A DNA stretch of 41,819 nucleotides from an uncultured Alphaproteobacteria bacterium (GTDB lineage Bacteria; Pseudomonadota; Alphaproteobacteria; CAAGCB01; CAG-977). Positions 35,721 to 41,819 of this stretch are shown one piece after another; position 1 is the stretch's first letter, and each line of letters begins with the position of its first letter. The notes beneath the pieces were generated by a model, which ran no database searches, was not told the origin of the DNA, and saw only the letters and a list, made by a program, of their open reading frames with translations. The stretch is taken from NCBI GenBank assembly GCA_944393745.1, contig CALYBD010000021.1, forward strand, positions 1-41,819, written 5' to 3'. A program made the translations under genes and the position numbers.

Positions 35721-35797
35721 GGTCTCGTAGCTCAGCTGGATAGAGCAACAGCCTTCTAAGCTGTGGGTCGAGCGTTCGAATCGCTCCGAGATCACCA
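35721..35797 (+). tRNA. tRNA-Arg (anticodon TCT)
   Basis: A complete 77-base cloverleaf with encoded CCA. The acceptor stem GGTCTCG pairs with CGAGATC (one G-U), and the D arm has AGCTCAGCTGGATAGAGC. The anticodon stem ACAGC/GCTGT encloses loop CTTCTAA (anticodon TCT, reading AGA/AGG), and the T arm has GTTCGAATC. A strong terminator follows three bases downstream. It precedes a stretch of different base composition. Confidence 0.97.
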
Positions 35798-36436: not shown

Positions 36437-36865
36437 TTATCCTGTTTTAAAACATTCTTCAATTTGTTCTATTAGCATGTTTAATTGATCAATGGTCATG
36501 GTTTGGCTAAATGTTATTTTTTTACAATTAGGGCATTTATCTTCAAAAGTAATTTGTTCAATTTCTCTTGTTTTCGGATTTACTTGAATTTTATCAATAA
36601 AGTATCCGTGAGATATAGAGTTTCTCATATGCCTAAAAAAATCACTTGCTGAATTTTTATAATTTAAAAAACTAATATCGACTAAAGCCAATAAGTTTGT
36701 TCTTTCTTTCTGAATTATTAGTAACCCTAACAAAGAATTTAGTAACATCGTTGTTTCATATTTATATTTTTTAGAGTCGTTAGAATGATTTTCTTTATAT
36801 AATTGTAGATTATATAAAGTTCTTTCGAAAAAATCTTTTTCCTTATCTTCTCTTAATTCTGACAT
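36437..36865 (-). CDS. HEPN-domain protein (pEK499-p136-like), candidate RNase or abortive-infection factor
   Basis: A 142-residue helical protein. The HEPN signature R-x4-H is clear as RNSISH (Arg81 to His86) in FFRHMRNSISHG, preceded by MLLNSLLGLLIIQKE. This arrangement resembles the plasmid-borne pEK499-p136 HEPN family. HEPN proteins are often RNases in toxin-antitoxin or antiphage systems. A CPNC pair (Cys111, Cys114) could bind a metal. ATG 36865 has GAGGA at 7 bases; an upstream in-frame ATG at 36925 with a weak site would add 20 residues. The gene is AT-rich compared with the core genes. No antitoxin gene is adjacent. Confidence 0.7.
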   Translation of the reverse strand: MSELREDKEKDFFERTLYNLQLYKENHSNDSKKYKYETTMLLNSLLGLLIIQKERTNLLALVDISFLNYKNSASDFFRHMRNSISHGYFIDKIQVNPKTREIEQITFEDKCPNCKKITFSQTMTIDQLNMLIEQIEECFKTG

Positions 36866-37089
36866 ATCGGTTTCCTCTTCAAAAGTGTTTTTCAAAGGAG
36901 TAAAAAATTTACTTAATATACCCATATTATCTTTTTTATAACAAGAGCAGATTAATCTTTAAATCTGTGGTAAGCTCTGAATCAAATTTTAATTCATAAG
37001 AGATATCGTTTTAAGGGAAAATGCGTTTATCTTGATAAAAAGAATAACTTATTTATCTTAAAACAAGACACTTTTTTAGGAGAATAAAC

Positions 37090-37986: not shown

Positions 37987-38020
37987 ATAAATTTCATGCG
38001 ATACGCATGCTTTAAATTTA
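37987..38020. terminator. Candidate bidirectional hairpin between convergent genes
   Basis: CATGCG (37995-38000) pairs with CGCATG (38004-38009) around a 3-base loop, and flanking ATAAATTT/AAATTTA can extend the stem. It sits between the convergent lipoprotein and protease genes and overlaps the protease stop codon. There is no clean T tract. Confidence 0.3.
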
Positions 38021-38920
38021 TTTTAAGAGAAATTCAATAACATCTTTTTTCCAAGCTATTCCAAGTTGAGCGGCAGAGCTGAGGTCGTAGCTTGGAATTG
38101 AAATAAATGGACGAAAACAGTCAGTTTGAGTTTCAGGAGCCTCAATGATTCTGCCGGAATAAATTCCTATAAATTCTATTTTATATGCGGCCTCATTTTC
38201 TATGATGTTTCCGTTGTTGTTTTTTAATAGAGAGAGAGGGTCGTTTACAATTCTATATATTGGAGAGCCGGACATCCCGTCTCGAGAAGCTGTATCTATG
38301 AAAAATTTGTGCCCAGAATGTCTTAGATCAGAAGCGATGCTTCCTTTTTTCCATATAGCTGAATGTGAATTATCTAATCTTCCAAAAGGAAAGCCAATTA
38401 TATAAACATCATCACTAGGATGCAGTATATAATTTGAGGTGAATTCTGGCTTTATAATGGTGTTTGCACAAAAAGGAGTTCCTAAATTTTTTTCGAAATC
38501 GGGAGTTTTAAACGTATAATTTGTTACATCAAGTAATGCTACATCAATATATGTATTATCTCTATACGCTTTTTCTATATATAAAGGCTTTTCATCTTCA
38601 TCTAATAGATTAAAGTCAAAATAATATCCGATTCCAGTATATTTATCTTGGGATACCCAGCTATATATCCATACTCGTAATTTGTTTGGAATAGCTCCGT
38701 TGATTCTAGGCTGATGTATTCCATGTTCATTTGGTTTATTGATTTTCCCGCTAAATACATGCCAATTTGAAACTAAATAAGTACGATTGTTTGTTTGATA
38801 TGCAAAGGCTGTTGCTTTTTCTAATAACGTATTATTATAAAAAGTTTCTACATAAAAAGAGGCGTGGGTTAATAAATCTACCGGATTAATTATGCTAGAA
38901 AATGGTTCGGAATATGGCAT
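38018..38920 (-). CDS. Stand-alone trypsin-like serine peptidase
   Basis: A 300-residue cytoplasmic-looking protease without signal peptide. The chymotrypsin-fold triad is readable as His54 (SNWHVF), Asp126 (YIDVALLDV) and Ser217 (RDGMSGSP, the GxSGxP form). VYIIGFPFG lies between the Asp and Ser motifs, as in trypsin-like peptidase_2 proteins. There is no PDZ domain, so it is not DegP-like. I choose ATG 38920; in-frame starts at 38950 and 39037 would add hydrophobic residues that could form a membrane anchor. Such stand-alone proteases often lie among defence genes, and the neighbours here (HEPN, ArdC, HNH) fit. The target is unknown. Confidence 0.75.
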   Translation of the reverse strand: MPYSEPFSSIINPVDLLTHASFYVETFYNNTLLEKATAFAYQTNNRTYLVSNWHVFSGKINKPNEHGIHQPRINGAIPNKLRVWIYSWVSQDKYTGIGYYFDFNLLDEDEKPLYIEKAYRDNTYIDVALLDVTNYTFKTPDFEKNLGTPFCANTIIKPEFTSNYILHPSDDVYIIGFPFGRLDNSHSAIWKKGSIASDLRHSGHKFFIDTASRDGMSGSPIYRIVNDPLSLLKNNNGNIIENEAAYKIEFIGIYSGRIIEAPETQTDCFRPFISIPSYDLSSAAQLGIAWKKDVIEFLLK

Positions 38921-39432
38921 TTTAAATTCTTTAATAGTGAATTTGAGCATTAAACTAAATATGCTTACAAAAATGATATCATATATAGGAACTTTTTTGT
39001 TATTTTTTTTAGTTCCAATATCATTTAGCCTACGCATTCTTTAGCTGTTGCTTCTCCGTCAACAGCTAATCACCTTTTCTGTCCGATGTTTGTGTCGTAA
39101 ATATATCTTTCGTATTTGAAAAGAATTGATTCCTGAGCCAGTAATGCGATGCTTGTGTTCTATACTTAACTGGTGCATATCTCTGCTGCGGGGCGCCCTT
39201 TGAAATCTTCTATGACGATGGATGTTTATTTTTAAACTTTGGTATGTCTATTTTTTTTCTTTTTTTATGGACTGTTCGTCCGAATAATTTAACTAAAAGA
39301 CAAAATCCATTGTCTTAGATTCTCATTTTTTCAACTTTCGAAAATGAAGACAGTATACGTTAACTTCTATAGAAACATTTTTATAAAACTAAAAAAGAGT
39401 AGCAAAATCAATAAGTCTTGTTTTGATGTCTC
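38921..39432. other. AT-rich intergenic stretch with no gene seen
   Basis: About 510 bases between the protease start and the ArdC leader. I see no credible reading frame with a ribosome-binding site and no RNA gene. The only clear structure is the inverted repeat at 39041-39069, described separately. Confidence 0.5.
39041..39069. promoter_or_regulatory. Perfect 10-base inverted repeat
   Basis: TTAGCTGTTG (39041-39050) and CAACAGCTAA (39060-39069) are exact inverted copies separated by 9 bases, about 120 bases upstream of the protease start. It may be an operator or an RNA hairpin. There is no T tract typical of a terminator. Confidence 0.4.
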
Positions 39433-39436
39433 TCTT

Positions 39437-39544
39437 GATCGTCAATTCCCTCTGCCTGACGGAAGAAAAACGGTTTCCCCTACTTTCGCTCCGGAGTCCC
39501 TGCAAGCCGGGTGATCCCCCTCCGTTTTTCTTGGAATGACAATC
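39437..39544 (+). promoter_or_regulatory. Large hairpin in the ArdC leader (copy 1)
   Basis: AAGAAAAACGG (39463-39473) and CCGTTTTTCTT (39522-39532) are perfect 11-base inverted copies. Outside them GATCGTCAATTCC (39437-39449) pairs with GGAATGACAATC (39533-39544) with one bulge. The same pairing exists in copy 2 (41609-41718), where GATTGTC pairs even better. It could act as RNA structure or as folded single-stranded DNA. Confidence 0.7.
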
Positions 39545-39573
39545 AGCTTTCTTCTCTCCGACGAAGCACCTCG

Positions 39574-39606
39574 AAAGGGTTTCAGGCGCGATGCCAAAAA
39601 CCCTTT
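39574..39606 (+). promoter_or_regulatory. Second hairpin in the ArdC leader, upstream of the ribosome-binding site
   Basis: AAAGGGTTT (39574-39582) pairs with AAACCCTTT (39598-39606) around a 15-base loop, 19 bases before AGAAGGAG. It is conserved in copy 2. It may control readthrough or translation. Confidence 0.55.
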
Positions 39607-39640
39607 AACAAGTGCTTTTTACAGAGAAGGAGCTTTCAAT

Positions 39641-40513
39641 ATGACTGATAAATTCGACATCATCGAAACCGTTTCAAACACCATCATCGAACGTTTGGAA
39701 AACTTTTCCGGCGAATGGGAAAAGCCGTTCATTTCCTCTTTTGCCCGGAACATCACGACAAAAAAGGCTTATCGCGGAATCAACATTCTGATTTTGAACT
39801 TTGCCGCTTTATTTAACGGTTTTTCCTCGTCCGTTTGGGGAACTTATCGCCAATGGCAGGATAAAGGCTATCAGGTCAAGAAAGGCTCAAAGGCGACGAC
39901 CATCGTTTTCTGGAAACCGCTTTCCTATAAATGCGAAGTCGAAAACACCGAAACCGGCGACATCGAAGAAGTCGAAAATCAGGCTTTTGTCGCCCGTGCT
40001 TATTCCGTGTTTAACGGTTCGCAAGTCGAGGGATTTGGCGAAGACATCGAAAAAACCGAATTTAGTGTTGAAAAGGACGTGATGGCGTTCTTTGAAAACA
40101 CGGACATCACTTATTTTTACGGCGCGACTTTGGCGGGATACGATCCGAAAAACAATGTTGTCTTAATGCCGGAAAGAAAAGACTTCAAAACGGGAACCGG
40201 CTTCGTTTCGACTTTGGCGCACGAAACAATCCACGCGACCGGACACAAAAACCGCTTAAACCGAGATATGAAAGGCCGTTTCGGAAATGAATCCTACGCC
40301 GTTGAGGAACTGATCGCCGACATCGGCGCGGGATTTGTCGCCGGATATTTGGGTTATGACTATCAATTCAGCAAAAACAACCTTGCTTATCTTAAATCTT
40401 GGCTCACGGTTTTGAAGAACGACAAAAAGGCGATTTTCAAAGCCTGCTCAGAAGCGCAAAAGGCTTTTGACTATTTGCTGACATTCCAGGAAATCGGACG
40501 GGAAGCGGCTTGA
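39641..40513 (+). CDS. ArdC-type antirestriction protein (ssDNA-binding domain plus zincin)
   Basis: A 290-residue protein. Residues about 5-130 form the ArdC N-terminal domain (EKPFISSFARN, KKAYRGINILILNFAA, VWGTYRQWQDKGYQVKKGSKATTIVFWKP), which binds single-stranded DNA in plasmid ArdC and TraC primases. The C-terminal zincin-like metallopeptidase domain has HETIH (194-198) with a likely third ligand in AVEELIADIGAGF (Glu222 or Glu223). ArdC proteins protect incoming plasmid DNA from restriction. ATG 39641 has AGAAGGAG at 9 bases. Codon use is closer to the core genes than to the AT-rich neighbours. Confidence 0.9.
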   Translation: MTDKFDIIETVSNTIIERLENFSGEWEKPFISSFARNITTKKAYRGINILILNFAALFNGFSSSVWGTYRQWQDKGYQVKKGSKATTIVFWKPLSYKCEVENTETGDIEEVENQAFVARAYSVFNGSQVEGFGEDIEKTEFSVEKDVMAFFENTDITYFYGATLAGYDPKNNVVLMPERKDFKTGTGFVSTLAHETIHATGHKNRLNRDMKGRFGNESYAVEELIADIGAGFVAGYLGYDYQFSKNNLAYLKSWLTVLKNDKKAIFKACSEAQKAFDYLLTFQEIGREAA

Positions 40514-40543
40514 CCGCTTCCCTCAAAAAGAGGAGAAAGGACA

Positions 40544-40705
40544 ATGAAGATTGCATTTTTCAGACTGACGGTTTACGGCGCGAACGGATACAAAAAAGAA
40601 CATTTCGACTTTCACAGCAAAGCCGCACAACTGTCCAAATTTTACGAACTGATTGCGCAGGGATACAAGCGCGACGATTTGGAAAAGACGACCTATTATT
40701 TCTAA
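40544..40705 (+). CDS. 53-residue protein downstream of ArdC, unknown function
   Basis: A short frame starting MKIAFFRLTVYG and ending EKTTYYF, 30 bases after the ArdC stop, with a strong AGGAG 8 bases upstream of the ATG. It is rich in Lys, Tyr and Phe with a beta-then-helix look (KIAFFRLTVYG, then KAAQLSKFYELIAQGY). I do not recognise it. Coupling to ardC suggests a shared role in DNA entry or anti-defence. Confidence 0.65.
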   Translation: MKIAFFRLTVYGANGYKKEHFDFHSKAAQLSKFYELIAQGYKRDDLEKTTYYF

Positions 40706-40708
40706 AAA

Positions 40709-40784
40709 TTCGGGCGGATACGATTCTGTGCCCGCCCCGTTTTTCGCCCGATGCCATGCCCGATTGCTTCGCAATCCGCCCGAA
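40709..40784 (-). terminator. Long inverted repeat, probable terminator of the HNH gene
   Basis: TTCGGGCGGA (40709-40718) and TCCGCCCGAA (40775-40784) are perfect inverted copies. A smaller hairpin GATTGC/GCAATC (40762-40767 with 40771-40776) competes at the right arm. On the minus strand the structure is followed by ATTTTTAG, as expected for a terminator of the minus-strand endonuclease gene. It also lies just past the 53-residue gene on the plus strand. Confidence 0.55.
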
Positions 40785-40803
40785 AAAAGAATTTCTTTTA
40801 CAT

Positions 40804-41556
40804 TTAAACGGATTTTTTTATTCTTTTTTTGAATTTTTTAATATCACTTGTTTCGTTTGTTTTATGAATCATTTTATGACAGTTCGGGCATAAAACAGCA
40901 AAATCAGAAGGAGTTACTACCCTTTCTTTTCCAATATCCAAATTACAGAAAGGTTTTAAATGATGTAATTCTATATATCCTCTGCCTATTTCACCATATA
41001 TTTCTTCCATTTTTCTGCCACAGGCTTCGCATGTTGTTCCTAATTGTTCAATTATTTTTTTACGTTTTTTTCCAGAAATACGACCTTCATAAAATATATG
41101 CTCTTTTAATTTCTTTTGTTCTATATATTTTTGAGCTTGTTCTTCCATTGTTTGTTTATCAAGCTTTCTGTCATCTCCTAAAATCCAAAAATGGAGTTTA
41201 GCTTCTTTATAAGAAGGAACTTCAAAAATCGTTTTTAAAAGAAATTCTAATTTTTTGTTAGTTTTGTATCCGCATTTTAAAATCTCGTCTATTTTTTTAG
41301 AGGTTCTTGTTCCAGATTTTTCATCATTCATTTTATGTTTTTTGTAATCATTGTTCTTGTATCCGACAAATCTACTAGGAGCTAAAAGCCATTCATCACA
41401 ATTATCGTCATAATAAGCGACATAGGCTCGCCCTCGCTTCATAAGATTAAAAGCAAAATCAGATAAAGTTTTATCGGAAGAAGCAAGATACTCATACAGT
41501 TTTTCTATATTTCTTATGATGTCGCTTTGCTTTTTTACAAAATGAATTTTTGTCAT
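40804..41556 (-). CDS. HNH endonuclease (McrA-like) with uncharacterised N-terminal domain
   Basis: A 250-residue protein. The C-terminal HNH/beta-beta-alpha-metal domain is clear: zinc cysteines Cys176 and Cys179 (CEAC), the catalytic ELHHLKP (His198, His199), and Cys223/Cys226 in VLCPNCHKMIH with His227 and His231. This arrangement resembles McrA-type and other restriction or phage-associated HNH enzymes. Residues 1-150 form a separate Lys-rich domain (SRFVGYKNNDYKK, SGTRTSKKIDEIL) that I cannot name; it may select the target. AAGGA lies 8 bases upstream of the ATG. The gene is AT-rich and points against ardC, sitting between the two leader copies. Confidence 0.85.
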   Translation of the reverse strand: MTKIHFVKKQSDIIRNIEKLYEYLASSDKTLSDFAFNLMKRGRAYVAYYDDNCDEWLLAPSRFVGYKNNDYKKHKMNDEKSGTRTSKKIDEILKCGYKTNKKLEFLLKTIFEVPSYKEAKLHFWILGDDRKLDKQTMEEQAQKYIEQKKLKEHIFYEGRISGKKRKKIIEQLGTTCEACGRKMEEIYGEIGRGYIELHHLKPFCNLDIGKERVVTPSDFAVLCPNCHKMIHKTNETSDIKKFKKRIKKSV

Positions 41557-41604
41557 AGATTTTTCCTTAACAGTATTTTTCTTAAGTAAGTGGACAATAA
41601 ATTT

Positions 41605-41819
41605 TCTTGATTGTCAATTCCCTCCGCCTGAAGGAAGAAAAACGGTTTCCCCGACTTTCGCTCCTGTGTCGCTGCAAGCCGAGGGAGATACCCCTCCGTT
41701 TTTCTTGGAATGACAATCGCTTTCTTCTCTCCGACGAAGCATCTCGAAAGGGTTTCAGGCGCGATGCCAAAAACCCTTTAACAAGTGCTTTTTACAGAGA
41801 AGGAGCTTTCAATATGACT
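41605..41819 (+). repeat. ArdC leader repeat, copy 2, with first codons of a further gene
   Basis: A near-exact second copy of 39433-39646, including the large inverted repeat, the second hairpin, AGAAGGAG and ATG ACT at 41814-41819, where the window ends. A gene must be expected to start at 41814 and continue to the right, probably another ArdC-family gene or one sharing its control region. Its identity cannot be read here. Confidence 0.9.

Follow-up and report, generated by a model that had tools for sequence, protein, structure and literature searches.

A duplicated structured leader of antirestriction genes, a putative Frpo-like element, belongs to a family found chiefly on alphaproteobacterial plasmids and conjugative islands

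Introduction

To our knowledge, nearly all single-strand promoters on record come from enterobacterial plasmids, and the searches made for them have relied on similarity to the Frpo sequence of the F plasmid. Frpo is a sequence of the leading region at which the transferred strand (T-strand), folded as single-stranded DNA (ssDNA), recruits RNA polymerase and drives the expression of early genes until the duplex is formed (PMC9849209, PMC7736820). Early expression of leading genes from Frpo occurs in vivo (PMC9849209), and Frpo has been described in both a promoter and a priming role (PMC7736820). Anti-defence islands with the kind of gene set discussed below have been reported from leading regions, and the Frpo candidates of Samuel et al. 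(2024) were found by similarity to known Frpo sequences or by consensus -35/-10 boxes (PMC11541004). The STAXI motif is found in the vicinity of antirestriction, SSB and other DNA genes, and single-stranded DNA has been proposed as its possible form (Weinberg et al. 2010, PMC2864571).

The window analyzed here (41,819 nt from an uncultured alphaproteobacterium) contains two copies of a structured leader that is, on the strength of sequence analysis, quite probably a Frpo-like ssDNA control element of the leading region and likely a promoter, with no detectable sequence homology to F Frpo. Like the Frpo/ssi elements of F and ColIb-P9 (Masai and Arai 1997; PMC9849209), it lies in a predicted leading region, has the predicted T-strand as both template and folding strand, folds better on that strand than on the complement and is repeated before several leading genes. 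Its stem bulges on the upstream side, as does that of F Frpo when folded here. It differs from F Frpo in sequence and in having stems that are GC-rich in most species and a conserved internal-loop core; no -35/-10 boxes were recognized in it, by a scan that does not single out F Frpo either. The hosts are mainly alphaproteobacterial MOBP elements rather than enterobacterial plasmids, and promoter activity is here putative. As in the islands described by Samuel et al. (2024), anti-restriction genes, methyltransferases and other leading genes lie on the T-strand behind folded elements (PMC11541004). Because their candidates were selected by Frpo similarity or by boxes, the present family would not be expected among them; it is set apart from them by description, not by sequence, and the main text of that paper does not mention Alphaproteobacteria (PMC11541004). 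The elements share with the radC RNA motif (RF01754) and STAXI the property of being structured bacterial motifs. The RF01754 covariance model gave no overlap with the elements and nothing above the cut-off, and neither STAXI nor any other Rfam family matched them at the gathering score or in permissive searches.

The duplicated leader and its genes

Direct repeats span positions 39433-39645 and 41605-41818 of the window, and the leader copies within them are 94% identical (Table 1). Each copy has two hairpins followed by the same ribosome-binding site and ATGACT (shared end AAGGAGCTTTCAATATGACT). The sequence-only reading had described a leader of about 210 bases occurring twice with this layout, and both the identity and the folding bear it out: the RNA fold z-scores are -3.8 and -4.5 with 0 of 200 dinucleotide shuffles as good for either copy, and the DNA fold of copy 1 has a z-score of about -3.1 against shuffles. 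The copies differ by 1- and 2-base indels that destroy any common reading frame. The frame is thus not conserved, as the same reading had it, and the leader is non-coding; a protein-coding interpretation was rejected on these grounds. Domain A is ordered P1, internal loop, P2, P3, TGATCCCCCTCC and P1'.

Table 1. Features of the leader units in the window
Feature	Position	Strand	Remarks
Leader copy 1, two-domain, structured, before ardC	39433..39640	+	Template and, most likely, folding strand is -
Copy 1 basal stem P0, 5' arm GATCGTCAATTCC	39437..39449	+	Pairs with 39533-39544; bulge of ~10 nt on upstream side; from folds
Copy 1 domain A, widespread element	39460..39537	+	Model R1, E 2.9e-14, own genome
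Copy 1 P2, 5' arm CCCTACTT	39478..39485	+	Pairs with 39504-39511
Copy 1 conserved TGATCCCCCTCC	39512..39523	+	3' side of internal loop and start of P1 3' arm
Copy 1 domain B, long second hairpin up to ribosome-binding site	39545..39634	+	From folds; family-wide test
Ribosome-binding site AAGGAG of ardC	39627..39632	+	
ArdC-type antirestriction gene, 290 aa	39641..40513	+	ArdcN and zincin-like metallopeptidase
HNH nuclease-like gene	40804..41556	-	Separates the leader units; transcribed divergently from copy 2; weak match to type IV restriction in PADLOC
Leader copy 2	41605..41813	+	On into orfX via contig C8 (predicted join)
Copy 2 domain A	41632..41711	+	R1 match, E 2.4e-11
orfX first codons ATGACT	41814..41819	+	Cut at contig end

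The gene after copy 1 encodes ArdC (ArdcN, 7e-33; MPTase-PolyVal, 1e-36). The gene after copy 2, previously taken for a second ArdC gene, is instead an unrelated gene of ~137 aa, here called orfX. The ArdC and orfX genes have their first codons (MTDKFD) in common along with the leader, so the duplicated unit extends into the coding start. The HNH nuclease-like gene is cargo, outside the leader unit. On contig C29 of the same genome, a different gene of 311 aa fills its slot (40804-41556 in the window), and the gap between the two leader units, which holds different genes on the two contigs, looks like a cargo hotspot.

The further copies that the sequence-only reading had proposed to look for exist. 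The genome holds four full leaders (two on the window contig, C21, and two on C29) and a 46-base fragment where contig C8 ends, and several close relatives hold more leaders, each followed by ArdC or orfX where read. C21 and C8 both break inside the repeat. C8 carries the last 46 leader bases, orfX, a 90-aa gene, a MobC-like gene, a MobA/VirD2-type relaxase gene and type IV secretion system (T4SS) genes. In a relative (G006, locus L019) the HNH-gene flank seen in the window, leader copy 2 and orfX lie in one piece; C8 therefore very probably continues the window, a join predicted from sequence. C29 has the gene order leader-ArdC, leader-orfX, 90-aa gene, MobC, relaxase. The mobilization genes sought nearby are thus present, since the neighborhood of the leaders includes mobC, a MOBP relaxase gene and T4SS genes with a canonical nic site beside the leaders.

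The orfX gene (L009 19374-19826; L007 5317-5760) lies on the leading side of the predicted origin of transfer (oriT), where it is the first gene except for the 90-aa gene. It has no Pfam or NCBIfam match, and no homologues were found in viral contigs. Relatives occur on 132 plasmid records, mostly of Acinetobacter, one of them annotated DUF2958. The gene is a candidate anti-defence gene. Elsewhere in the window, a tRNA-Arg (tct) gene at 35721-35797 is followed by apparently accessory genes, including a HEPN pEK499_p136-like gene (36437-36925) and a trypsin-like peptidase gene (38018-39037); the tRNA gene is a possible integration site of a conjugative island.

A family of structured elements

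Plain BLAST of leader plus gene against plasmids and phages gave weak ArdC coding matches or none, and the family surfaced only when the leader alone was the query at a permissive E-value. The inner part of hairpin 1 (39471-39524) then matched unannotated intergenic sites, most of them on plasmids of Alphaproteobacteria and a small number in Beta- and Gammaproteobacteria. Some 140 copies were read, and their hosts are chiefly alphaproteobacterial plasmids and conjugative islands; several outliers in other phyla, such as Cerasicoccus, are among the matches listed. A pattern scan of GTDB genomes yielded at least 119 stretches. Over all loci read, 140 of 153 pattern matches show the complete architecture, which consists of a variable P1, T.TC, P2 (CCC..CYT / ARG..GGG), a variable apical hairpin P3, TGATCCCCCTCC and the closing arm; the other 13 are chance matches, contig ends or variants. 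Because the pattern used to collect copies itself fixed several core letters, their invariance is partly by construction. The pattern left free P3, P0, domain B, two variable P2 pairs and P1 save its last pair or two.

A model of ~80 nt (R1), built from 47 copies, finds five copies in the genome of the window. Including this genome, it has matches in 9 of the 21 genomes of a search among relatives and in 10 of the 299 genomes of a phylum-wide sample, with one to six copies per plasmid. The model has no match in the F plasmid (NC_002483), and the core words are missing from the F leading region.

The stems of the element covary. In an alignment of 47 sequences, the P1/P2 covariation score is 0.50 against 0.136 when shuffled (0 of 500), although the p-values are nominal because the copies are related and independence is overstated. 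Structures slid along the same alignment score 0.06-0.15, 86% of paired cells are occupied by pairs against 65.5% when shuffled, and 10 of 12 P1 pairs vary on both sides. The covariation that the sequence-only reading had asked about is therefore strong in the outer stem of hairpin 1. P1 pairing is 82%, and falls to 49% after arm swaps among 98 distinct stems. Of 123 copies, 48 have the basal stem P0, compared with 4 when shuffled, and its bulge is on the upstream side in 46 of the 48. Domain B, the stretch from P1 to the ribosome-binding site, is likewise more stably folded than its shuffles (mean z -3.3).

Contig C9 of the genome of the window has, at its start, a diverged copy with a wholly changed P1 (AAAAAAGAGG/CCTCTTTTTT; L010 571-650, minus strand), which probably marks a second conjugative element. 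One contig filed as viral (IMG/VR; L164) has an element followed by a long open reading frame (ORF) sized like ParB-like genes and may be a misfiled plasmid. In two Sphingobium plasmids, group II intron maturase genes adjoin ArdC/zincin genes annotated in pieces (L033 2303-8674, L199 6531-8962), and the intron ends at L033 were confirmed by Rfam.

Genes downstream of the element

Downstream genes were called by a rule based on the ribosome-binding site, with controls; taking the longest ORF instead produces spurious antisense genes in GC-rich DNA. An ORF preceded by a ribosome-binding site follows 126 of 135 copies, against 22 of 132 when the opposite flank is searched and 35 of 140 for randomly chosen positions. 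Its start lies at a median distance of 101 nt, and within 90-109 nt for 97 of the 126. The first genes, named from one representative per cluster, are ParB-like (34), ArdC (31), DUF932 (15), DUF3768 (9), ArdA (6) and N6/N4 DNA methylase genes (3), together with DUF736, DUF2958 and small unknowns. The proposal that several anti-defence genes have the element in common is thus upheld by this set, which is of the kind known from leading-region anti-defence islands (PMC11541004).

The folding strand

Three features distinguish the two strands of the element. Helix exceptions, read in coding-strand letters, are A-C or C-A in 131 cases and G-T or T-G in 28. The former are G-T wobbles on the complement, where P2 is 98.0% paired compared with 89.7%. 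Triloops of the form C(GNA)G are unusually stable in DNA, GNA being a stability motif of DNA and not of RNA. On the coding strand, the apical triloops of domain A are C(TNC)G in 61 copies and C(GNA)G in 1, and those of domain B are 41 and 0, respectively, whereas the background is 1748 and 1635. Read on the template strand, the C(TNC)G loops become C(GNA)G. With DNA parameters, the template strand folds more stably in 94 of 106 copies, whereas among controls it does so in 52 of 105, and the bias persists after stricter dereplication (38 of 41 and 16 of 19). The two window copies fold at -37.3 and -42.7 kcal/mol on the template strand against -33.8 and -37.0 kcal/mol on the coding strand, 9 of 10 relatives have the same bias, and F Frpo1 and Frpo2 are biased in the same direction. 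The mispairs, triloops and energies together indicate that the evolved fold is most likely that of the template strand as single-stranded DNA.

The transfer origin and the transferred strand

YATCCTG is the nic motif of MOBP relaxases. The motif lies on the template strand upstream of mobC, or of traJ or a ribbon-helix-helix gene, in all nine mob loci examined (C29, C8, Bartonella, Sedimenticola, Nitrosospira, two Caulobacter and two Sphingobium plasmids), and it is followed by C in eight of them. In Nitrosospira the motif is weaker (TATCCTGA), and in Sedimenticola the other strand bears an additional ATCCTG. Given the strand of the motif, it is the folding strand that is predicted to be transferred, and the strand that leads after nicking is expected to enter via the leader genes, away from mobC. 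The predicted nic on C29 is separated from the leader of orfX by ~0.85 kb and from that of ArdC by ~3 kb; judged by the predicted oriT, the family occupies the leading region.

The predicted T-strand is the template for 18 of the 20 elements in these loci. The remaining two are inverted and have the other strand as template; each of the two Caulobacter plasmids has one such additional copy, which adjoins nic beside oriT (L198 10326-10403, minus strand; NZ_CP013003 58964-59042, plus strand). The inverted copy of pCB4 lies beside a MerR-like gene.

Proposed function and alternative explanations

Structure, covariation, the agreement of the folding strand with the predicted T-strand, the fixed distance to the gene and the spread of the family all come from sequence analysis and support a Frpo-like control element; that the fold acts as a promoter read by RNA polymerase is what we infer from them. 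The relaxase would nick at oriT just upstream of mobC during conjugation, and the first few kilobases of the T-strand to reach the recipient would include the orfX and ardC units. While single-stranded, the T-strand would fold at each leader into P0, the bulge, P1, the internal loop, P2 and P3, and then into the second hairpin. Host RNA polymerase would load on the folded strand and, because this strand is the template of the downstream gene, could transcribe ardC or orfX before second-strand synthesis. Duplex formation would then remove the fold and turn the gene off again.

The entry-triggered Frpo-type promoter suggested by the sequence-only reading is sustained in part. The strand that folds coincides with the predicted T-strand and with the template, as a single-strand promoter would demand, but no homology to F Frpo was found, and a simple scan for the -35/-10 boxes by which Frpo is defined revealed no convincing ones beyond shuffles in the folded or the unfolded form; the same scan misses the proven F Frpo too. 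One tentative and rather doubtful idea is that the conserved internal loop (T.TC opposite TGATCCCCCT) and the TCC/GTGC loop form a recognition surface for a factor or a mode of RNA polymerase not yet described, and that there is no disguised sigma-70 promoter.

The T-strand fold might instead be an ssi site that recruits primase or RNA polymerase for second-strand priming, with the nearby gene incidental. The strand and the leading-region position are those expected of such a site, toprim genes occur on some of these plasmids, and Frpo itself is said to serve both roles (PMC7736820). However, there is one element per gene and up to six copies per plasmid at a fixed start-codon distance, and a start codon ~101 nt away is needless for priming. 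Priming as the sole function is unlikely, and priming and promoter roles are compatible and may be shared.

The element could also be a cis-acting mRNA leader, riboswitch-like or protein-bound, whose folded transcript would sequester the ribosome-binding site within hairpin 2 and regulate translation, with an ordinary double-stranded promoter upstream. The constant spacing of ~100 nt to the ribosome-binding site, the ability of hairpin 2 to pair with this site in the window copies and the strong RNA folding z-scores are in keeping with such a leader. Yet the mRNA-sense strand is the better folder in only 12 of 106 copies, the mispairs are A-C and not G-U, GNA triloops occur only on the other strand and no Rfam family matches. 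Furthermore, homology in the window genus ends abruptly at the leader base, and the sequence upstream of many copies is unrelated, so the copies there have no shared external promoter. An mRNA leader is accordingly a distinctly improbable explanation.

A structured antisense RNA that is made from the opposite strand and regulates the downstream gene would satisfy the mispair and energy comparisons equally well. It is nonetheless very improbable, as GNA triloops stabilize DNA and not RNA, the scan of copy 1 found no promoter-like sites on either strand, and the T-strand match in 18 of 20 elements would be left unexplained. A non-regulatory, dispersed palindromic repeat (REP/MITE-like) would account for several near-identical copies per element and for cassette-like boundaries, but it is hardly credible given the same orientation and start-codon distance in nearly all copies, the compensatory stems and the lack of random dispersal within the genome.

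Implications

If the leader is the Frpo-like element proposed here, a large strand-resolved alphaproteobacterial family would explain the expression of anti-defence genes on the arrival of MOBP plasmids and conjugative islands. If the internal loop and the TCC/GTGC loop are indeed a recognition surface, the entering ssDNA would itself be sensed, and entry-triggered expression would have been invented separately and convergently across alphaproteobacterial conjugative elements. The R1 model, at ~80 nt, offers a sequence handle for leading regions and for new anti-defence genes such as the candidate orfX, and early expression from single-stranded DNA outside the Enterobacteria becomes directly testable.
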